Below, in pieces: positions 35,901 to 57,979 of a stretch of 64,000 nt of DNA. The DNA comes from Sulfurovum sp. UBA12169 (GTDB lineage: Bacteria > Campylobacterota > Campylobacteria > Campylobacterales > Sulfurovaceae), in contig DLUH01000004.1 in the NCBI GenBank assembly GCA_002742845.1, positions 1 to 64,000 of the forward strand. Direction: 5' to 3'. Every line of letters begins with the position of its first letter. Positions within the stretch are counted from its first letter, which is position 1. The position numbers were made by a program, and so were the translations under genes. A model generated the notes under the pieces. The model searched no databases and was not told where the DNA came from. It saw only the letters and a program-made list of their open reading frames with translations.

Positions 35901-36902
35901 TTATCTCCCCGCTATCCTTTGTTCCCATACCTGAAACGCATCGTCAAAATAGACGATACGCTGCTTCTTGAATTCTACAGTCGAATAGAGCTTTCCGTAC
36001 TCTTTTAAGCCCGTTTCTTTGGCTATCTCTTCAATGATTATGTCACACTCTTCTTTTGTTTTGGCATGCACCATCGCAAAAAGATTGTAAGGCCATCCGG
36101 AATAGCTCGGACGCAAATAGCAATGGCTTACCGCAGAGAAGCTTGCTATCTCTTTTCCTATAGTTTCTGCTTGGTTTTCCGGTACTGCCCAGACGCTCAT
36201 GGCATTGGCATTAAAACCGGCTTTTCTGTGGTTGAGGATCGTTGCAAAACGACGCATAACACCGCTTTCAATCAGCTCTTTGGCAATGTCGAAGAACTCC
36301 TCATAGGAGATGCCCAGCTGTTTTACAATGTCCTTAAAGGGCTCCTTGGTGGCTTGGATATCGTTTTGCAGTGCTTTGATAACAGCCATATGCAGAGAAG
36401 TAAGCTCTAAATTTTTATGGGCGGCTTTTTCTACCTTTTCTTTTTTGCTTCTTGTGCCCGTAGTATCCATTTTTACGGATATTTTAAACATCTTAAGTGT
36501 TGGAAGGACGATAAAATCATTTACTCCGGCTTGCTCTGCTAATAGCTGTACGGTTTTTTCCAACCCAAATTTGCTATCAGGAGCTACTGCCAAAGTAAAC
36601 CACATGTTGTAGTCGTGATCACGAAGATAATTATGGCTTACTCCGGGATGTGCATTGATGAGCCCTGAGACTTTATCTATAGTGTCCTTAGGCACCTTAA
36701 ATGCAACCAAAGAAGAAGCGTATCCTAACCTTTTTGTATCAAAAATAGCAGAAGTTTGCCGGATGATTTTTTGCTCTTTGAGATTTTGTACAAGACCAAT
36801 CACCTCCTCTTCCGTGGCATTGAACCCTTCAGCCAAAACCTTAAAAGGTCTTTGGGCGAGAGGAAAAGCATTTTGCATTTGATAAAGCAACTCATTTTGC
36901 AT
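35901..36902 (-). CDS. Fused siroheme decarboxylase NirDLGH (two AsnC-type units)
   Basis: A 333-residue protein built from two tandem AsnC/Lrp-like halves (about 1-155 and 165-330). Each half has an HTH-like N-terminal part and a ferredoxin-like part with a conserved NxWF/GWPYNLF segment; HNYLRDHDYNMWFTLAV and HCYLRPSYSGWPYNLFAM are the paired motifs. In other denitrifiers NirD, L, G and H are separate or partly fused; together they decarboxylate siroheme to didecarboxysiroheme for heme d1. Here one gene appears to supply both unit types. It is convergent with the regulator and has its own FNR-boxed promoter. Confidence 0.85.
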   Translation of the reverse strand: MQNELLYQMQNAFPLAQRPFKVLAEGFNATEEEVIGLVQNLKEQKIIRQTSAIFDTKRLGYASSLVAFKVPKDTIDKVSGLINAHPGVSHNYLRDHDYNMWFTLAVAPDSKFGLEKTVQLLAEQAGVNDFIVLPTLKMFKISVKMDTTGTRSKKEKVEKAAHKNLELTSLHMAVIKALQNDIQATKEPFKDIVKQLGISYEEFFDIAKELIESGVMRRFATILNHRKAGFNANAMSVWAVPENQAETIGKEIASFSAVSHCYLRPSYSGWPYNLFAMVHAKTKEECDIIIEEIAKETGLKEYGKLYSTVEFKKQRIVYFDDAFQVWEQRIAGR

Positions 36903-37027: not shown

Positions 37028-37597
37028 ATGTCTTTTTTTCCAATGTATATGGACATGCAGCATTTAAAAATATTGGTAGTAGGCGGAGGAAAGGTTGCAA
37101 GCGAGAAACTAGAGAAACTTGTTGACTTTACCGAACAGATTACAGTGATCGCCATCAAGACAGATGCCCAGGCGGAATGTCTTATTGAAGAGCATGGTTT
37201 GACACTGTATCAAAGAATGTATAAAGAGGGCGACATAAAAGGGTTTGATATGGTGATTGTGGCAACAGATACCATAGATCTTCATCGGGCGATTTATGAA
37301 GAGTCAAGAGAGAGCAGAATACTGGTCAACAGTGCAGACAATATAGCCTACTGTGACTTTGTTTTTCCATCTTATATCAAACAGGGAGATTTGACTATTT
37401 CTTTTTCAACAGGGGGAGCCTCCCCCGCGTTTGCTAAGCAGATACGTAATTATTTTTTGGATAAAATTCCAAACACAGTAGATGAATTTTTGCAAAAGAT
37501 GAAATTTTTACGTGCTCAAATGCCCAAGGGCAAAGAACGGATGCAGAAATTTGATGCGATGGCAAAAGAATTTATAGAAAAAAACTTTAAGTCTTGA
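37028..37597 (+). CDS. Precorrin-2 dehydrogenase / sirohydrochlorin ferrochelatase (Met8/CysG-N-like)
   Basis: A 189-residue protein with an N-terminal NAD-binding fold: ILVVGGGKVASEKLEKL, then VNSADNIAYCDFVFPSYI and LTISFSTGGASPAFAKQIR, the segment conserved in CysG N-terminal and Met8 proteins. It oxidises precorrin-2 to sirohydrochlorin and may insert iron to give siroheme, linking CobA to NirDLGH. AAAAGGAATATA precedes the ATG. The stop codon overlaps the FNR box of the next gene, so that operon starts separately. Confidence 0.85.
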   Translation: MSFFPMYMDMQHLKILVVGGGKVASEKLEKLVDFTEQITVIAIKTDAQAECLIEEHGLTLYQRMYKEGDIKGFDMVIVATDTIDLHRAIYEESRESRILVNSADNIAYCDFVFPSYIKQGDLTISFSTGGASPAFAKQIRNYFLDKIPNTVDEFLQKMKFLRAQMPKGKERMQKFDAMAKEFIEKNFKS

Positions 37598-37607
37598 CGC
37601 GAGTCAA
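37594..37607 (+). promoter_or_regulatory. FNR-type box of the first DUF2249/12-TM module
   Basis: TTGAC-GCGA-GTCAA. A perfect TATAAT at 37630-37635 gives a predicted start 41.5 bases from the centre. The box overlaps the last four bases of the preceding gene. Confidence 0.72.
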
Positions 37608-37663
37608 CAAGATTAGAAAAAAAGCTGACTATAATGCAATAAATTAAACTATAGGAGATAATA

Positions 37664-38014
37664 ATGAAAACAATTAATAAACCAGACAATGCAGAAGAGT
37701 TTATGCCGCAGGGGGCTACGGTTCCTTTTTTTAAATATCAAATGGGAGAAGATCAAATTATCGAATTTGATACTTCAAGATGCGGACCCCCAGAGCCCAT
37801 GGTGAACGCTATGATAGGTCTTAAAATGGTGGATGAACACACGAAGCTGTTGATGATCAACCACAAAAGACCAATGGGTTTGCTCGAAAAAGTTCAACAA
37901 AATTTTAATCTTGAAGAGGCAGACACAGAAGAAGGAAATGTGCAGCTTCTCTTTTCTCATAAAGCAGGAGAGAGCGAAAAAGCAAATCTTAACGATAGCG
38001 CTTGCCACGGTTGA
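37664..38014 (+). CDS. DUF2249 protein
   Basis: A 116-residue soluble protein. The core (about 33-85) fits DUF2249: IEFDTSRCGPPEPMVNAMIGL then LLMINHKRPMGLLEKV. Proteins of this TusA-like fold are often found beside hemerythrin and NO-related genes, with no known biochemistry. It has one Cys in the conserved SRCGPPEP turn and another in the final ACHG. TAGGAGATAATA precedes the ATG. It heads an operon with the 12-TM protein, DUF59 protein and globin-PsiE protein under an FNR-boxed promoter. Confidence 0.7.
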   Translation: MKTINKPDNAEEFMPQGATVPFFKYQMGEDQIIEFDTSRCGPPEPMVNAMIGLKMVDEHTKLLMINHKRPMGLLEKVQQNFNLEEADTEEGNVQLLFSHKAGESEKANLNDSACHG

Positions 38015-38022
38015 CAGTATAA

Positions 38023-39267
38023 ATGTTTAGTATATCCAAAGAGTATGCCCCGCCGTTTGAAATGATTGCTCCTTTTTTTAAAATGGGAGCGCTTTTTTAC
38101 TTAATAGGGGTGATATTTTTACTTTTTATAGATCCAGGCAGCTCTTATTCGGACATGACTATTGTAGGGTGGACCCACTGGTTTTTATTAGGTTTTATCA
38201 TGATGATCATTTTTGGAGCAATGGCGCAATTGGTGCCGGTGGTCGTAGAGGTGGGGCATTTTTCTGTGGATCTTTATCTTGTGATTTGGCCGCTTTTGAT
38301 GGCGGGAGCAATCATTATGAGTATAGGGTTTATTTTCATACCCGCCGCGTTGCCGTATGGTGGGCTATTGGTGCTTACAGCCATGATCATTTTTCTTTAC
38401 GATACAAGCATGACACTTAGAAGAGTGGAGCACATTTCGTTAACGGTTAAAACAGTAGCGGCTGCAAATCTTTTTTTGCTCTTAGGTATTGTGACAGGTT
38501 TTATTATGTCTTTAGCCATAGGGGAAGGCTTAGATGTTAATATAAACAAATGGCTCGGCGTTCATGTTGTGTTAGTGTTGGGCGGATATGTAACATTGAC
38601 TATCATGGGGCTATCGCTTATACTGTTGCCCATGTTCGGGCTTTCGCATGGGTTTGATGAAACTCCCATCAATCGTGCATTCAAGCTGATGATTGTCGGG
38701 GTGTTGGGCTACTTTTTTTCATCGCTCTTTGGGATCAGCTGGGGAAACATTTTATTTCTTCTTGTGATGTTTGCCTCGGTGAGTTTTTATCTCCAACAGA
38801 TCGTCATTATTTACAAAACAAGAGCACGAAAAGAAAATGATATCTGGGCTAAATCCATGTTCTTTGGATACGGTTCTCTTTCTTTTGCTTTGATTTTGGG
38901 AATTTTATGGCTTTTTATAGATGCCCGGCAGTTATTGCTTGGTTCGGCATGGTTTTTGATAATGGGCTTTTTTGCTTTTTTGATCAATGGCCATCTTTAC
39001 AAAATTATTCCTTTTTTGGTATGGTTTAAGCGTTATAGTCCTTTAGTCGGAAAAGAAAGGGTTCCTATGCTGCATGAAATGTATCCCAAAAAAGAAGCCG
39101 AATATGAGTTCGTTTTTTCTGCATTTGGAGTCGCGATCGCTGGCATAGGAATTTTATTTGGAAGTACCATACTTTTCAAAGCTGGTGTATCTTTTTTAAT
39201 TGTAGGTGCCGGATTTATGTTTTATAGTGTGGTGTGGATGATAAATTATGGAAAAAATAAGGAGTAA
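38023..39267 (+). CDS. 12-TM membrane protein, heme-copper-oxidase-like (paralogue of 53484-54758)
   Basis: A 414-residue protein with about 12 TM segments. His residues within membrane segments could bind heme: THWFLLGF in TM2, GVHVVLVLGGYV in the middle, and the conserved GHLYKIIPFLVWFKRYSP. The late motif VPMLHEMYPKK is also conserved in the paralogue at 53484. The layout recalls heme-copper oxidase subunit I or NnrS, but the canonical CuB/FeB His set is not evident. It lies 8 bases after the DUF2249 gene. A role in NO or nitrite metabolism is inferred from the shared regulation; the reaction is unknown. Confidence 0.6.
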   Translation: MFSISKEYAPPFEMIAPFFKMGALFYLIGVIFLLFIDPGSSYSDMTIVGWTHWFLLGFIMMIIFGAMAQLVPVVVEVGHFSVDLYLVIWPLLMAGAIIMSIGFIFIPAALPYGGLLVLTAMIIFLYDTSMTLRRVEHISLTVKTVAAANLFLLLGIVTGFIMSLAIGEGLDVNINKWLGVHVVLVLGGYVTLTIMGLSLILLPMFGLSHGFDETPINRAFKLMIVGVLGYFFSSLFGISWGNILFLLVMFASVSFYLQQIVIIYKTRARKENDIWAKSMFFGYGSLSFALILGILWLFIDARQLLLGSAWFLIMGFFAFLINGHLYKIIPFLVWFKRYSPLVGKERVPMLHEMYPKKEAEYEFVFSAFGVAIAGIGILFGSTILFKAGVSFLIVGAGFMFYSVVWMINYGKNKE

Positions 39268-39270
39268 ACA

Positions 39271-39591
39271 ATGTGCAATATAACAAAAGAGCAAGTCTAT
39301 GAAGCAATCAGTACGGTCATAGACCCTGAAGTGGGTTTTAATCTTGTTGAGATGGGGCTTATCTATGATGCGCTCATTGAAGAATCTTGTAATGTAAAGG
39401 TGGTAATGACTCTCTCAACACGAGGTTGCCCTTTGCATCAAATGATTACACAATGGGTGCGTGAAGCAGTGGAGCGTCTTGAAGGGGTAGGTGTCGTTGA
39501 AGTGGATGTAGTCTGGGAGCCTGCTTGGAATATTTCAATGGCTGATGATAATGTTAAGGTTGCATTGGGCGGCGGCACTGCGATGTGGTAA
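39271..39591 (+). CDS. DUF59/MIP18-family protein (iron-sulfur assembly factor type)
   Basis: A 106-residue protein with the DUF59 core: VIDPEVGFNLVEMGLIYD at the N-terminus and TLSTRGCPLHQMI with the conserved Cys. SufT and PaaD-type proteins of this family help mature iron-sulfur proteins. It starts 3 bases after the 12-TM gene, so it may mature a cofactor of that module. AAGGAGTAAAC lies upstream of the ATG. The client is unknown. Confidence 0.8.
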   Translation: MCNITKEQVYEAISTVIDPEVGFNLVEMGLIYDALIEESCNVKVVMTLSTRGCPLHQMITQWVREAVERLEGVGVVEVDVVWEPAWNISMADDNVKVALGGGTAMW

Positions 39592-39647
39592 CACTTTGAT
39601 ACTATTTGTCTGGATACGTAAAAATTTTTAAAGAAAAAGAGAGAAAC

Positions 39648-40559
39648 ATGCAGCAGCAATATACCAGTCTCAAAGAGGATTATAAATTTTCGCAAGAAGA
39701 TAATGAATTGCTGCTGAAGCTTAAGCCTAGGATGGAAGAGTTATCTGAAGAGTTTATCGATGAGTTTTATGATTATATTTGGGGATTTGGAGCAACAGCC
39801 TCTTTTTTAAAAAATAAACAAATTATTGCCTATCATCGCGAAAAAATAAAAGAATGGTTTGTAAATCTTTTTTGCGGACAGTATGACATGACCTATTTTA
39901 TGTATTTATACAAGATAGGGGAAGTGCACGTAAGGATCGGATTGCCGACACATTATGTAAATGCTGCGTTTACTTTCGTCCGAACATTTGTCTTGAAAAA
40001 TATTGAAAAGAACGCTTCAGAAAAAGAACGTTATGCTAAAGAAATTATAGCTGTTGAAAAAATTATCGATATGAATCTGGATGTGCTTACCAGTTCTTAC
40101 AGAGAAGAAGAGTTGAGCAAGTTTTTGTCAATGTCAAAATTTGAAAAAACCATTTTATCCGGATTAAAAAAATTTACATCCTATATCAATTTTCTTCTTG
40201 CGGGTGCATTGGCTTTGGTTGCTTTTTTTGCTATAGGCCTGTTTTCATATGATATTTATCTTCTTTTTTTTACTGATATAGGCATGGAAAAAGGTATTCT
40301 TACGGTATTGGGAAGCTTGCTTGTTTTGTGGGCAGCGATAGAGCTGATTCATGAAGAGATCAAACATTTGCAAGGACAGGGATTTGCGATAGGCGCCTTT
40401 ATCATGCTCGCGATGGCCGCACTTATTCGAAAAGTTCTAATCTACTCCCTGTCTACTGAAAAAAGCACAGAACTTTTAATTATAGGGGCCGTCATAGTGG
40501 GCCTGGCAGTCGCCTACTGGCTTGTAGGGATAAAGACAAAAAACTCTTCGGATCTCTAA
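39648..40559 (+). CDS. Globin-sensor / PsiE-like membrane fusion protein
   Basis: A 303-residue protein. Residues about 5-155 fit a globin-coupled-sensor/protoglobin domain, with proximal His94 in the typical motif IGEVHVRIGLPTHYV. Residues about 180-300 form four TM segments with the PsiE-like stretch VLWAAIELIHEEIKHL and AMAALIRKVLIYSLS. The globin would bind NO or O2 and signal to the membrane part; no kinase, cyclase or methyl-accepting domain is present. ATG 39648 has AAGAGAGA upstream. It is the last gene of the DUF2249 module, ahead of nap. Confidence 0.75.
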   Translation: MQQQYTSLKEDYKFSQEDNELLLKLKPRMEELSEEFIDEFYDYIWGFGATASFLKNKQIIAYHREKIKEWFVNLFCGQYDMTYFMYLYKIGEVHVRIGLPTHYVNAAFTFVRTFVLKNIEKNASEKERYAKEIIAVEKIIDMNLDVLTSSYREEELSKFLSMSKFEKTILSGLKKFTSYINFLLAGALALVAFFAIGLFSYDIYLLFFTDIGMEKGILTVLGSLLVLWAAIELIHEEIKHLQGQGFAIGAFIMLAMAALIRKVLIYSLSTEKSTELLIIGAVIVGLAVAYWLVGIKTKNSSDL

Positions 40560-40602: not shown

Positions 40603-40648
40603 GTTTAGAGCTAAAATCTTGATTTGAATCAAGATTTTAGCTCTAAAC
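40603..40648 (+). promoter_or_regulatory. 46-base palindrome with the napA FNR-type box at its centre
   Basis: The box TTGAT-TTGA-ATCAA (40619-40632) sits exactly in the middle of an inverted repeat with perfect 21-base arms (left arm starts GTTTAGAGCTAAAATCTTG). TATTAT with upstream TGC (40656-40661) is the likely -10. The palindrome could also form a terminator-like hairpin for the preceding operon. Confidence 0.75.
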
Positions 40649-53483: not shown

Positions 53484-54758
53484 TTAATAATTGAATTTCT
53501 GTCCCTCTTTTTGGGTTTTAACGTAAAGATAATGGGCATGGATAATTTGATAGCCCATCCATCCAAAGGAAAGCATTGTCAAAAGCGAGGCAAGCAAAAT
53601 GAGTTGAGGCACCACAAGAGAGAGGATGACTGCAGCTATCATGCTGCAATGTATCCAAAAATGTTTTTTTGCGGTTTTGGGATGAATGATCTCATGCATC
53701 ATCGGTGCGGTAAAGTAGCCTTGGCTGCTTAAATGAAACCATGTAAGAAAAGGTATGATCTTGTAAAACATCGCAAAAACAATGCTGAGTGCAAAAGCGC
53801 CGAACCATAGATATGCCAGCGTATGAACCCATGCCGTCTGAACAAAAAGCCCGAGCATAAAGCAGAGCATACTGACAATCAAACCTCCCAGCCCCAGCCG
53901 CCAAAACCATACGGTAGCATCACTGATGGGGCGTTTGCGCTGTGAAAGCCTTTTTAGCGTGACTGCGGCATAGGCGACTAAAAACAGTGCTAAGACAAGA
54001 TGGCAAACAATCCAGACATCAGGCAGAAAAAAAGACAGTATTGAAGCTGCGGCCAATAACAACAGGATGCCGCCGGAGAAATACCTGCCCATTACGCTCG
54101 GATAGGGCGGCGTAACGTAAAACATCTCGATCACCTGAAAAGAGATGGAGACGATCAATACGGCAATCCATCCAAACAGCCCGAACGAATAGTGCGCGGT
54201 TTTGATTTCAACATAGTGCACTCCTTCATTGTAGCCTCCGAGTGCTGCGGTAAGATACAGCGCAGCAATTATCAAGAGCACCAACGAAAACAGTGCAGCG
54301 GTAATGCCTTTTGATGAAGAGGTGTGGTTGGGAACTTGCAGCAGTTTTTTGATCATTTCAAAAGCGATAAACAGCAGTGGCCCCCCAAGCAGCAGCGAGG
54401 CGAGCAGATAAAGCCAGGCAATTTTGCCCAAATGAAATGCAAGCAAAAGCAAAACAATGCCTGCAATAAGAGGATACTGTACCCAGTTTGCTTTTTTTAC
54501 GGGCGAGGTAAGCTTGACACCCGCAATTACGGGAAGCATTTGAAAGAGCGCAGCCAGCATAAAAGAGAGCATAATGCCTAGCGTAAAGACATGCGTCAGT
54601 ACAAGCGCACCGTTTGATGCCGGATCAAAAATCCCGTTTTGATAGATTGCCAGCAAAATTCCTCCGAGTATACCGAAAAGTGCTCCTTGCAAAAAGAATC
54701 TGAAAACAACAGAGATCGGAGGCGCCTGGTCTAGCGAGAGACCTTTTTGACTAAACAA
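53484..54758 (-). CDS. 12-TM membrane protein, heme-copper-oxidase-like (paralogue of 38023-39267)
   Basis: A 424-residue protein with about 12 TM segments. It shares the layout and key motifs of the protein at 38023: THVFTLGIM...AALFQMLPVIAG in TM2, AHYSFGLFGWIAV in the middle, and YKIIPFLTWFHLSSQ with APMMHEIIHPK near the end. The conserved His in membrane spans suggest heme binding. It is the last gene of the FmdE-like / hemerythrin / DUF2249 operon and overlaps the DUF2249 gene by 8 bases. Its reaction is unknown. Confidence 0.6.
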   Translation of the reverse strand: MFSQKGLSLDQAPPISVVFRFFLQGALFGILGGILLAIYQNGIFDPASNGALVLTHVFTLGIMLSFMLAALFQMLPVIAGVKLTSPVKKANWVQYPLIAGIVLLLLAFHLGKIAWLYLLASLLLGGPLLFIAFEMIKKLLQVPNHTSSSKGITAALFSLVLLIIAALYLTAALGGYNEGVHYVEIKTAHYSFGLFGWIAVLIVSISFQVIEMFYVTPPYPSVMGRYFSGGILLLLAAASILSFFLPDVWIVCHLVLALFLVAYAAVTLKRLSQRKRPISDATVWFWRLGLGGLIVSMLCFMLGLFVQTAWVHTLAYLWFGAFALSIVFAMFYKIIPFLTWFHLSSQGYFTAPMMHEIIHPKTAKKHFWIHCSMIAAVILSLVVPQLILLASLLTMLSFGWMGYQIIHAHYLYVKTQKEGQKFNY

Positions 54759-55002
54759 AGAGATACTCCTTCAGATCGACCGAAGGGTTTTTTGTTATCA
54801 GGATATGCCAAATTCCTTCGGTATCTTCGCGGCTGATTACCTGAAAATTATGTTCTTGAGCAAGGTCAATAAGCGGAATAGGATTTTTTCGATGAATCAT
54901 ATAAAGATAATCGTCCTCCTCCAGAGCTCTTAATATATTGATAGCCATTGCCAATGGTTTGGGATGTTCTAATTCTCTAGCGTCAAGTGTAATTTTTTTC
55001 AT
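54751..55002 (-). CDS. DUF2249 protein (second copy)
   Basis: An 83-residue protein with the DUF2249 pattern: LDARELEHPKPLAMAINILRAL and YLYMIHRKNPIPLIDLAQE. I place the start at the ATG 55002, which overlaps the hemerythrin gene by four bases; the upstream extension of the frame lies in that gene. Like the copy at 37664, it directly precedes a 12-TM protein gene, so the pairing is conserved within this genome. Confidence 0.75.
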   Translation of the reverse strand: MKKITLDARELEHPKPLAMAINILRALEEDDYLYMIHRKNPIPLIDLAQEHNFQVISREDTEGIWHILITKNPSVDLKEYLFV

Positions 55003-55439
55003 AATTCCGTATGTTTCATTGTCTCCAGGGTTTCTTCTTTGATTGCAGCGGGAAGAATGTTGTCGCACATGGCATACAGCATCTGTTCTTCTTTCATATT
55101 GTGCTGCTGCAGCAAAATCATCATCGATTCAGCCAACGAAAGACAAGCATCCATGTCCTCATCAATAATGGCTGAAGCCATTTTTCCGATCAACCCTTTG
55201 ACTTGTTCGTGTTCATATCTCATGACCGCCGTAGGTCCTTCTGTGCTTCCTGTTTGTTTTTCAAAAGCAGGGAAAAGCACCTCTTCCTCTTTTTTAAAAT
55301 GCTGAAGCGTTTCGTGCGCAAAAATTTCAAATTGTTTGGTTGCTTCCTCCCAATCTTTTTTTGATGCAGCCTCTTCTGCTTTGGCAAAATAATCGTCGCA
55401 CAGCCTGTGTTCGCCTTTCATGTAGTGAGAAATATTCAT
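54999..55439 (-). CDS. Hemerythrin-like protein
   Basis: A 146-residue four-helix protein with HHE-type iron ligands: GEHRLCDDYF, HETLQHFKKEEEVLFPAFE, MRYEHEQVKGLIG and QHNMKEEQMLY. Bacterial hemerythrin-like proteins bind O2 or NO at a di-iron site and some repair nitrosatively damaged iron-sulfur clusters (YtfE type). It lies between an FmdE-like gene and a DUF2249 gene in an FNR-boxed operon, which suggests a role under NO stress. Confidence 0.85.
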   Translation of the reverse strand: MNISHYMKGEHRLCDDYFAKAEEAASKKDWEEATKQFEIFAHETLQHFKKEEEVLFPAFEKQTGSTEGPTAVMRYEHEQVKGLIGKMASAIIDEDMDACLSLAESMMILLQQHNMKEEQMLYAMCDNILPAAIKEETLETMKHTEL

Positions 55440-55464
55440 GCGCTATCCTTTATCGTGTGAAATT

Positions 55465-56067
55465 TTAATGTATCGTAATCATTTGATCCCACAACTCTTT
55501 TGTGAGAAGTATTTTGCTGACGCGTTCTTGCCATAGCTGCCCGAAAAGTTTTTGTTCTTCTTGGGAGGCAGCCTTGCTAAGACATTTGCCCATAAGCGGC
55601 ATCATGTTTTTATCGCCGGGTACCATGGACGGATTATAGCTAAGAGAAACTGATTGGTTGGTGTCTAGTCTTGTGAGCGTAACTTCTCCTTGCATCGGTT
55701 TGTTAAATGCCACGAGATTGTTTCTGCTAAAATTGCCTTGGATTCCTTTAAAGCCGCCAACCCCGCTTGCCCCTACAATAAAAGAGATTACGTTGGCAAT
55801 GACGCCTTCTACCCCTTCTTTTTCGTCTTCTTTCATGGCAACATGGATATTGCCTCTTTGGGGAAGCCCCTGGGGATAAAGGGTTGCAAGACCTTTGAGC
55901 GCCATCAGATAGGCTCCGGCTACGGTTGGACAGGAGTGTCCTGCCAATTTGACGCAGTCTAAATAGGTAATTTCAACCTCTCCGTTTTCTACGGCTCCCA
56001 AAAAATTGCTTAAAGCATCATACAGCTGTATGGATTGAACATTGTCGTAAAAATCAGGATATTTCAT
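55465..56067 (-). CDS. FmdE-like protein
   Basis: A 200-residue soluble protein. The segment KLAGHSCPTVAGAYLMALKGLATLYP matches the GHxCPG...A...AL motif of FmdE-type proteins when cut to its core (GHSCPTVAGAYLMA), where His and Cys bind metal. No C-terminal zinc finger is present. FmdE-like proteins outside methanogens have no settled function. It is the first gene of the hemerythrin/DUF2249/12-TM operon and its promoter carries a perfect FNR-type palindrome. Confidence 0.65.
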   Translation of the reverse strand: MKYPDFYDNVQSIQLYDALSNFLGAVENGEVEITYLDCVKLAGHSCPTVAGAYLMALKGLATLYPQGLPQRGNIHVAMKEDEKEGVEGVIANVISFIVGASGVGGFKGIQGNFSRNNLVAFNKPMQGEVTLTRLDTNQSVSLSYNPSMVPGDKNMMPLMGKCLSKAASQEEQKLFGQLWQERVSKILLTKELWDQMITIH

Positions 56068-56130: not shown

Positions 56131-56144
56131 TTGATATATATCAA
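56131..56144 (-). promoter_or_regulatory. FNR-type box of the second DUF2249/12-TM module
   Basis: TTGAT-ATAT-ATCAA, a perfect palindrome. On the minus strand a perfect TATAAT (56103-56108) is at class II spacing. No comparable -10 is found towards the plus-strand gene at 56282. Confidence 0.75.
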
Positions 56145-56281
56145 TTCTTTGTTTAAAATAGTTTGATAAAGATTTTGCGGCAAAAAGTTTTGATTTGCCA
56201 AAACAGAGATTCTTGTTTGAGATCAAAGGATACCTCAAATAAAAAGTATATAATTCTTAAAATTGATAAAAAAGGGTGCAG

Positions 56282-57265
56282 ATGAGTGAGTTTTTGGGGA
56301 ATGATATGTTTTCTGTTTTGCCGGAGGGGCATCCGGCAAAAGTTTATATAGAAGAAAATGCATTGACAAGAGAGTTGATCGGCAAGCTAAGAGATGTCAA
56401 CATACAAAGCCAAAAGGAAGAGTTTGCAGAGCTATTAAAAAAGTTGATGCTTATCGAAAAGCATTTTGCCAGAAAGGAAAACCAGCTTTTCCCGTATCTG
56501 GAAAAATACGGCTGGACAAGCCCCAGCCAAAATATGTGGGCGTTTCATGATCAGATCAGAGATGAGATAAAAGCCGTACGCAAAGCGATAGAGTCAGACG
56601 ATATGGTTTTGGCCTCTCAAAATCTCGCGCAAGTGTTTCGAAGTTTGGAGCATTTGATGATCGTCGAAGAGAACAGGCTTTTGCCCAATGCGCTTTCTAT
56701 GCTTAGCGAGGAAGACTGGAAAGAAATGCGAGAGGGTGACGAAGAGATAGGATGGATGTTCGATGCTCCGCCTGTTGCTTATCCTGCACCAAGCGAAGAA
56801 GCCTATATTCACCCCAGCAAAGATACCAAAAAACGAAACCTTCCTTTTTCTATCGAAGACAGAATCAAATTGGACGAAGGGTACATGCTTCCCGAGCAGA
56901 TCAATCTTTTGCTGAAATTCATGCCGGTTGATATTACCTATGTAGATGAAAACGACATGGTTATTTTTTACAATCGGGGAGAGGATCGGGTTTTTCCCAG
57001 AAGCGCAGGCATCATCGGACGCGAAGTGAAATTTTGCCATCCTCCCAAAAGCGTCGATCAGGTACTGATGATACTCAGGGAGTTCAAAGCCGGAAGAAAA
57101 GATGAAGCGGAATTTTGGATAGAGTTTAAAGGAAAGTTTATCCATATAAGATATTTTGCGATACGCGATGAAGAAGGGGCCTATAAAGGCGTCATAGAGG
57201 TAAGCCAGGATGTAACGCACATAAGAAGTCTCAGCGGAGAGCGAAGACTTTTGGATTGGGAGTAA
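56282..57265 (+). CDS. DUF438 protein: hemerythrin-like domain plus PAS domain
   Basis: A 327-residue soluble protein. The N-terminal half (about 15-150) is hemerythrin-like: LIEKHFARKENQLFPYLEKYG, FHDQIRDEIKAV and HLMIVEENRLLPNALS. Residues about 205-320 form a PAS domain (MPVDITYVDENDMVIFYNRG ... GVIEVSQDVT). This is the DUF438 architecture, thought to sense O2 or NO through iron or heme. ATG 56282 is five bases after AAGGG; an in-frame GTG at 56276 is less likely. It is followed 3 bases later by a MOSC gene. Confidence 0.8.
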   Translation: MSEFLGNDMFSVLPEGHPAKVYIEENALTRELIGKLRDVNIQSQKEEFAELLKKLMLIEKHFARKENQLFPYLEKYGWTSPSQNMWAFHDQIRDEIKAVRKAIESDDMVLASQNLAQVFRSLEHLMIVEENRLLPNALSMLSEEDWKEMREGDEEIGWMFDAPPVAYPAPSEEAYIHPSKDTKKRNLPFSIEDRIKLDEGYMLPEQINLLLKFMPVDITYVDENDMVIFYNRGEDRVFPRSAGIIGREVKFCHPPKSVDQVLMILREFKAGRKDEAEFWIEFKGKFIHIRYFAIRDEEGAYKGVIEVSQDVTHIRSLSGERRLLDWE

Positions 57266-57268
57266 ACG

Positions 57269-57979
57269 ATGAATATGAATGGCATAGCAGCAGTATTGTC
57301 CGTACAGATCGGAAGCGTCACTAAAGAGGGTGAAGAAAACAGCAAAGAATTTCTTACAAAAACCTATGAGACCGCTTCGTATAAGCTTCCTGTCTCTTGC
57401 GGTGTAAGGGTGACAAAAAACGGGATAGAGGGAGATTTTGTTGCCGATACAGTCCATCACGGAGAGGTTGACAAGGCGGTATTTGCCAACAGTTTTAAAA
57501 ATTATGAAAGCTGGAAAAATTTTTTGGGGCTGGATGCCTTAGCATTTGGCGCTTTGGCTGAAAACCTAACGTTTGATGCCATAGACGAAACCGACGTATG
57601 CATTGGCGACGTGCATAAGATAGGCTCAGTGATATTGGAAGTTTCCCAGCCCAGAAAACCTTGCTGGAAAATTTCCAGAAGATGGCAAAACAAACATTTT
57701 ACCAAAGAGATTTACGACACCGGGAAAACCGGATGGTACTATCGGGTGATACAAGAAGGGATGATGGCCAAAGGCGACAAGGTCGAGCTTATCAGCAGAC
57801 AAAACGTTTTGGTGAGCATTCAAGAAGCCAACGAAGCTTTTAAAGACCCCGACGAGCATCCTGATACGGTTGAAAAACTTATGCAGCTTGATGTGCTGGC
57901 GCCTGCCTGGAAGAGAGGGCTTGAAAAAAGAGTCGCCAACAAGAATGAAGTTTTAGAATATATGAAGATTGATGATTAG
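57269..57979 (+). CDS. MOSC-domain protein (YiiM-like)
   Basis: A 236-residue protein with the MOSC beta-barrel landmarks: GIEGDFVADTVHHGEVDKAVF, FGALAENLTF, VCIGDVHKIG, and the conserved Cys in QPRKPCWKISRR, followed by a three-helix C-terminal region as in YiiM. MOSC proteins bind molybdenum cofactor; YiiM reduces N-hydroxylated compounds. It is cotranscribed with the DUF438 protein. A role in detoxifying hydroxylamine-like or nitrosated products is a reasonable but untested inference. Confidence 0.8.
   Translation: MNMNGIAAVLSVQIGSVTKEGEENSKEFLTKTYETASYKLPVSCGVRVTKNGIEGDFVADTVHHGEVDKAVFANSFKNYESWKNFLGLDALAFGALAENLTFDAIDETDVCIGDVHKIGSVILEVSQPRKPCWKISRRWQNKHFTKEIYDTGKTGWYYRVIQEGMMAKGDKVELISRQNVLVSIQEANEAFKDPDEHPDTVEKLMQLDVLAPAWKRGLEKRVANKNEVLEYMKIDD

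Follow-up and report, generated by a model that had tools for sequence, protein, structure and literature searches.

The window analysed here is a 64,000-nucleotide stretch of Sulfurovum sp. UBA12169 (assembly GCA_002742845.1, contig DLUH01000004.1, positions 1 to 64,000 of the forward strand). Between its CysG-like and heme d1 genes and its nap genes lie four tightly packed open reading frames (ORFs) in the same direction, at 37664-40559 on the plus strand, and this group of genes is the subject of the present analysis. An initial annotation, made from the letters alone, had described a four-gene operon at this place with a regulator box and a TATAAT element in front of it. The ORFs, their place and their strand were confirmed in the sequence, and both promoter elements could be read directly. 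The features of the locus are as follows.

37594-37607, plus strand: FNR/DNR-type box TTGACGCGAGTCAA, a palindrome of the form TTGAC-N4-GTCAA, read directly
37630-37635, plus strand: -10 element TATAAT, read directly
37664-38014, plus strand: DUF2249-like protein, 116 amino acids (aa); Pfam PF10006 at 19.5 bits, E = 9e-4, cut-off 29.5
38023-39267, plus strand: protein with 12 transmembrane segments (12-TM protein) and a predicted heme-copper-oxidase (HCO) fold, 414 aa; based on AlphaFold, a profile match to CcoN and conservation
39271-39591, plus strand: DUF59 (SufT/PaaD/MIP18-type) protein of the iron-sulfur (Fe-S) assembly family, 106 aa; PF01883 at 68.3 bits, cut-off 23.5
39648-40559, plus strand: protoglobin-PsiE fusion; PF11563 at 94 bits and PF06146 at 73.7 bits, both above cut-off

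The DUF2249-like, 12-TM and DUF59 genes are separated by only 3-8 bases, and the 12-TM gene is 85-92% identical to the nearest public loci. The protoglobin-PsiE gene likely starts at ATG 39648 and not at TTG 39606.

The order DUF2249-12TM-DUF59 was held in nearly all of 80 loci from other genomes. Divergent triads, whose 12-TM proteins were 26-36% identical, occurred in other Campylobacterota families, some of them beside purine genes, indicating that the triad is a self-contained unit. The globin-PsiE gene, on the other hand, stood at the triad locus only in the closest relatives (loci L003-L005, L133 and L134). Elsewhere in the genus it was patchy and free-standing at unrelated places (loci L135-L141, 76-81% identical), which suggests that it moves or is frequently lost. 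The conserved core is the triad, and the globin is a local addition. The earlier view of the globin as an integral partner did not hold: in this phylum it is optional, and we rejected it as a part of the core module because it is missing from most triad loci and free-standing elsewhere in the genus. By Pfam, its protoglobin domain and PsiE membrane domain give it the makeup of a globin-coupled sensor, and a sensing role is predicted; a literature search on globin-PsiE returned nothing relevant. On an Aliarcobacter butzleri plasmid (NZ_CP104333, 36501-38374) the triad is flanked by a recombinase/Tn3 transposase and IS21, and given this setting the triad may be mobile. In one relative (L088, 6055-7287) an in-frame TAG splits the 12-TM gene.

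We scanned the window and the loci retrieved from relatives for boxes of the type found at 37594-37607. A transcription start 6-7 bases downstream of the -10 element would put the centre of the box at about -41.5, a spacing that fits a class II activator site. A TTGA-N6-TCAA box was present upstream in 75 of 84 homologous loci (dinucleotide shuffles gave a mean of 1.25 and a maximum of 4), usually 60-75 bases ahead of the start codon. The conserved site is probably an FNR/DNR-type regulon trait with a putative regulator of that family. Eight more boxes of the form TTGAY-N4-RTCAA were found in the window, ahead of the norCB region, nirS, the anaerobic ribonucleotide reductase gene, the heme d1 genes, cysG, nap and a second 12-TM group. 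Because these boxes precede genes of the denitrification region, the module appears to be under common control with the denitrification genes that surround it.

To relate the module to denitrification across the phylum, we surveyed 249 Campylobacterota genomes. A close 12-TM orthologue was present in 34 and cd1 nitrite reductase (NirS) in 37; 32 genomes had both, 2 only the 12-TM protein, 5 only the cd1 enzyme and 210 neither (Fisher p = 1e-32). The same comparison by genus gave counts of 12, 2, 3 and 38 (p = 8e-8). The nitric oxide (NO) reductase cNOR showed a parallel pattern and occurred in 31 of the 34 genomes with a close orthologue. Divergent triads went instead with NosZ and qNOR (31 of 44 with NosZ). 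A tie to nitrate reduction in general was rejected, since NapA was present in 214 of the 249 genomes and could not discriminate. The tracking of cd1 NirS by close orthologues and the recurrent FNR-type box bear out the initial annotation in so far as it proposed an FNR-boxed nitrosative or anaerobic respiratory module, and they link this module to denitrification. The co-occurrence with an NO-producing nitrite reductase, the gene context and the relatives together suggest that the module may handle NO.

The AlphaFold model of the 12-TM protein had a predicted local distance difference test (pLDDT) score of 91 and a predicted template modelling (pTM) score of 0.90, and all of its top Foldseek hits were HCOs or NO reductases (NORs). 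Superposition on CcoN (8smr_E) gave a VIA Z of 35.5 and a root-mean-square deviation of 3.0 Å over 388 residues. The VIA Z was 33.5 with cNOR (4xyd_A), and the deviations in the CcoN/cNOR range were 3.0-3.3 Å over 372-388 residues. When a profile of 61 relatives was compared with solved structures, CcoN was the sole match (E = 7e-7), with unit 1 of the 12-TM protein aligned to TM9-11. By these models and profiles, the 12-TM protein is predicted to have the HCO fold. It had no Pfam match at E up to 1, and thus none to PF00115, and no NCBIfam match.

Two histidines, H52 in TM2 and H181 in TM6, were invariant in 77 of 77 aligned relatives, including those from Thermus, Haloprofundus and Sinorhizobium. 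Units 1 and 2 both aligned to TM9-11 in a repeat comparison with a CcoN profile built from 20 sequences, and H52 and H181 each fell on the second His of the TM10 HxH motif, which in CcoN is a ligand of the low-spin heme. TM7 (residues 214-235) contained no conserved His in the alignment of relatives, so there is no CuB/FeB pair, and in the profile alignment with CcoN the TM10 HxH was replaced by S308 and W310. Because the TM7 His pair and the TM10 HxH are both missing, we rejected a canonical oxidase or NO reductase. The profile comparison and structure prediction that the initial annotation had proposed for this protein thus gave the HCO fold but not the ligand set of either enzyme. CcoN and NorB (PF00115) share with the 12-TM protein the fold and the His in TM2 and TM6; they differ from it in the TM7 pair, the TM10 HxH and the PF00115 match, and identity is ~12%.

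From the limits of the helices and the many charges in loops 8-9 and 10-11, the N-terminus and loops 2-3, 4-5, 6-7, 8-9 and 10-11 were assigned to the cytoplasm. This topology puts H52 and H181 near the periplasmic side and three further histidines that are conserved in the core 12-TM family, H79, H209 and H324, near the cytoplasm. H52 and H181 most likely hold one heme b. Judging from the three-fold pseudosymmetry of the fold, this heme would sit in a pore that is empty of heme in true oxidases. H209 and H324 were both present in 64 of the 77 aligned relatives and both missing in 11, with one discordant case each. The pair was nearly restricted to triad-type proteins; one or both residues were lost in copies without DUF2249 and DUF59 neighbours (L092 and L093) and in paralogue B, the 12-TM protein of the second group in the window. 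Phylogeny alone may explain this pattern.

The NnrS family (PF05940) resembles the 12-TM protein in being a 12-TM heme-protein family of the same superfamily, and its members occur in NO regulons. Unlike NnrS, the 12-TM protein has no Pfam match, and the two are related by weak profile-profile similarity only (E = 8e-4, probability 24%). We rejected membership in NnrS on the basis of the missing PF05940 match, this low probability and the presence of a separate NnrS gene in the genome (226 bits). A literature search on NnrS and Sulfurimonas returned nothing relevant. Of the earlier label, an HCO/NnrS-type protein with incomplete ligands, the HCO fold, the two ligand-type histidines and the partial ligand set stand, but the NnrS assignment does not.

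The DUF2249-like protein is probably a distant relative of PF10006. Its conserved positions include C40 (83%), H67 (99%) and C114 (97%). The model (pLDDT 93) had chains of the TusA/SirA family as its top structural neighbours, with low Z scores of 6.5-7.7 over 70-75 residues, and Foldseek gave weak, mixed hits. By our reading, C40 lies two residues ahead of the position of the active Cys in TusA. The protein possibly has a SirA/TusA-like fold, and there is only a hint of a sulfur-carrier role. The DUF59 protein has an invariant Cys53 and His56 in a CPLH sequence (CPxH motif). It scored 91 bits with TIGR02945, which is under the cut-off, and was also under the NCBIfam cut-offs for SufT, SUF_assoc and PaaD. 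Like the SufT/PaaD/MIP18 proteins (PF01883) it is a Cys-containing domain of the Fe-S assembly type; unlike them it is partnered with a membrane heme-type protein and not with suf or paa genes. A literature search on DUF59 and denitrification returned nothing relevant.

Pei, Li, Kinch and Grishin reportedly described in 2014 a set of three-unit HCO-homology (HCOH) proteins with 12 TM segments and two conserved His for one heme. The three repeated units are said to be nearest to the last HCO unit, and the proteins to be linked with DUF2249 and denitrification. With its HCO-unit-3-like units and two conserved His, the 12-TM protein presumably fits the one-heme HCOH group. Features that set the triad apart from the HCOH proteins as reportedly described are its fixed DUF59 partner, its upstream FNR box, the H209/H324 pair and the closeness with which it tracks cd1 NirS. 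To our knowledge, no reaction has been shown for the HCO-homology membrane families or for DUF2249, which we take to be the same family as COG4309, and to this extent the chemistry is undescribed, as the initial annotation had stated. The HCO-homology families and the link between DUF2249 and denitrification have, however, already been published. COG4309 was tied to NO reductase (nor) operons in 2005 (PMC1274295), and the DUF2249 proteins DrpA and DrpB were tied to nitrate respiration in Thermus in 2018 (PMC6282519). DUF2249 has also been tied to haloarchaeal denitrification in a paper that cites Pei et al. 2014 for the link between DUF2249 and the HCO superfamily (PMC11218638). The 12-TM protein is a variant among the HCO-homology proteins, one whose DUF2249 and DUF59 partners are constant.

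Relatives outside the phylum were found in denitrification clusters. A Thermus thermophilus plasmid carries, after the nar operon, drpA and drpB, a 4-TM COX1-like gene and genes for a protoglobin, a 12-TM homologue and DUF59, so that the same four kinds of part (DUF2249, protoglobin, 12-TM and DUF59) are adjacent in a different phylum. This cluster differs from the present locus in that its 12-TM protein is ~30% identical with Met at the position of H324, its globin has no PsiE domain, and it has an extra 4-TM COX1-like gene and a DUF1858-DUF2249 protein. Beside the 12-TM homologue on the Thermus plasmid NC_017273 (L128, 4521-4955) is the gene for a protein of 144 aa that includes a COX1-like stretch (HVHAG motif) and looks like a free-standing single oxidase-fold repeat unit. 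A Haloprofundus plasmid carries three DUF2249 genes along with nirK, and the 12-TM relative encoded on it matches PF00115. The Sinorhizobium 12-TM gene comes after a DUF2249 gene and is near a gene that, read by eye, is NnrS-like.

Our preferred reading, to which we give somewhat less than an even chance, is that, in sulfur-oxidising Campylobacterota that reduce nitrite to NO, the locus is a denitrification-accessory cassette whose membrane heme binds NO or passes electrons and whose partners protect or rebuild Fe-S and metal sites. There is good support for the gene set, the promoter box, the predicted fold and the association with NO-producing respiration. We infer that the protein binds heme, that its ligand is NO, that the regulator is of the FNR/DNR family and that Fe-S sites are protected or repaired, and propose the following mechanism. 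Low oxygen and nitrogen oxides would induce the operon through an FNR/DNR-family activator. The 12-TM protein, without CuB ligands and a high-spin heme ligand, would hold a single heme b at H52/H181 near the periplasmic face, and the DUF2249-like and DUF59 proteins from the same operon would act at its cytoplasmic face. The membrane heme would bind NO (or pass electrons) while cd1 nitrite reductase makes NO, and the two partners would protect or rebuild NO-damaged Fe-S and other metal sites. The protein would not conserve energy as an enzyme but would have an NnrS-like protective role with dedicated cytoplasmic partners. A globin-PsiE gas sensor would have joined the end of the operon in this lineage.

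Several points weigh against this reading. Among the 94 genomes with some triad-type 12-TM protein, 22 had no NirS, NOR or NosZ, and four cd1 genomes had no triad-type 12-TM protein. These exceptions in both directions indicate that the module is accessory, being neither confined to nor essential for NO production. The Fisher tests ignore phylogeny, although the genus-level test agrees. The DUF2249-like protein scored below the gathering cut-off of PF10006 in an alignment over almost the whole domain. For no member of the 12-TM family did we find spectroscopy, an activity or a mutant, and we know of no proven role of DUF59 or DUF2249 in NO repair. As a gene set without an assigned function that closely tracks the cd1 enzyme across the phylum and carries the same type of promoter, the triad is a strong candidate for a component still missing from denitrification in Campylobacterota of vents and sediments. 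With partners this constant and with the H209/H324 pattern, the role of DUF2249 and of one-heme membrane proteins resembling oxidases becomes testable.

Maturation is the rival that survives best, although we consider it unlikely. Here the 12-TM protein and its partners would serve the assembly of NirS, NosZ and Nap/Nar by carrying sulfur, iron or heme through or along the membrane, and would not handle NO. DUF59 is an Fe-S assembly family, and many relatives have the operon next to heme d1 genes and nap. In addition, 67 of 76 NosZ genomes had a member of the wider 12-TM family (p = 2e-28), and in drp mutants of Thermus the NarG protein is produced but is almost or wholly inactive (PMC6282519). 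The DUF2249-like protein resembles the TusA/SirA sulfur carriers, its best match being the TsuB domain of the thiosulfate uptake complex, but the Z of 7.7 falls in the range of unrelated matches. Against maturation, the triad is kept in several genomes that have none of NirS, NOR and NosZ, and it is absent from some genomes with cd1 or NosZ. The oxidase fold and the His pair also suggest a heme protein over a transporter.

A signalling module, in which the membrane heme would sense NO, nitrate or redox state and signal through DUF2249 to denitrification regulators, as proposed for DrpA/DrpB, seems to us quite improbable. The Thermus proteins DrpA and DrpB do alter nar and dnr expression (PMC6282519), and their genes adjoin a homologous 12-TM gene. 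A sensor globin also belongs to this operon and, as an independent case, to the Thermus cluster. The triad, however, has no output or DNA-binding domain, DUF59 fits a signalling role poorly, and the globin is missing from most loci. Least probable is a non-canonical NO-metabolising enzyme with heme at H52/H181 and a second, cytoplasmic-side site around H209/H324 (with H79 in the core family): the joint variation and loss of H209 and H324 and the tight link to cd1 NirS speak for it, but nearly all genomes with a close orthologue already have cNOR, and a site of this kind is not known to us from any enzyme of the HCO fold. That such an enzyme, its second site occupied by metal or heme, relies on its own DUF2249 and DUF59 proteins for loading and upkeep and carries out NO or sulfur-nitrogen chemistry unlike that of the known oxidases and NO reductases is likewise a long shot.

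Apart from the triad locus, the window contains the second 12-TM/DUF2249 group, with the following features.

53484-54758, minus strand: paralogous 12-TM protein (paralogue B), which keeps only the two universal His (H56 and H189)
54751-55002, minus strand (ORF open to 55068): DUF2249 partner of paralogue B; PF10006 at 41-43 bits, above cut-off
56131-56144, no strand assigned: FNR-type box TTGATATATATCAA, between the FmdE/hemerythrin/DUF2249/12-TM group and the divergent hemerythrin-PAS gene

The paralogue B/DUF2249 pair is grouped with a hemerythrin gene and an FmdE-like gene on the minus strand (53484-56067 in all), and the divergent segment at 56276-57979 on the plus strand comprises the hemerythrin-PAS gene and a MOSC gene. 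A search for homologues of paralogue B on plasmids found none.

Three further observations concern neighbouring and related genes. A long palindrome at 40603-40648, upstream of napA, has 22-base arms and a 2-base centre (GTTTAGAGCTAAAATCTTGATT-TG-AATCAAGATTTTAGCTCTAAAC) and encloses a full FNR box, TTGATTTGAATCAA; it is odd for a simple regulator site, and there is no T-run downstream. Within the heme d1 cluster, on the opposite strand, the siroheme decarboxylase subunits AhbA and AhbB are fused as one gene (35901-36902, minus strand). The genome further encodes a second NorB-like protein (C1:9674-10987) that is 42% identical to cNorB, and there are two NosZ genes (C4:80670-82463 and C1:229461-231254).

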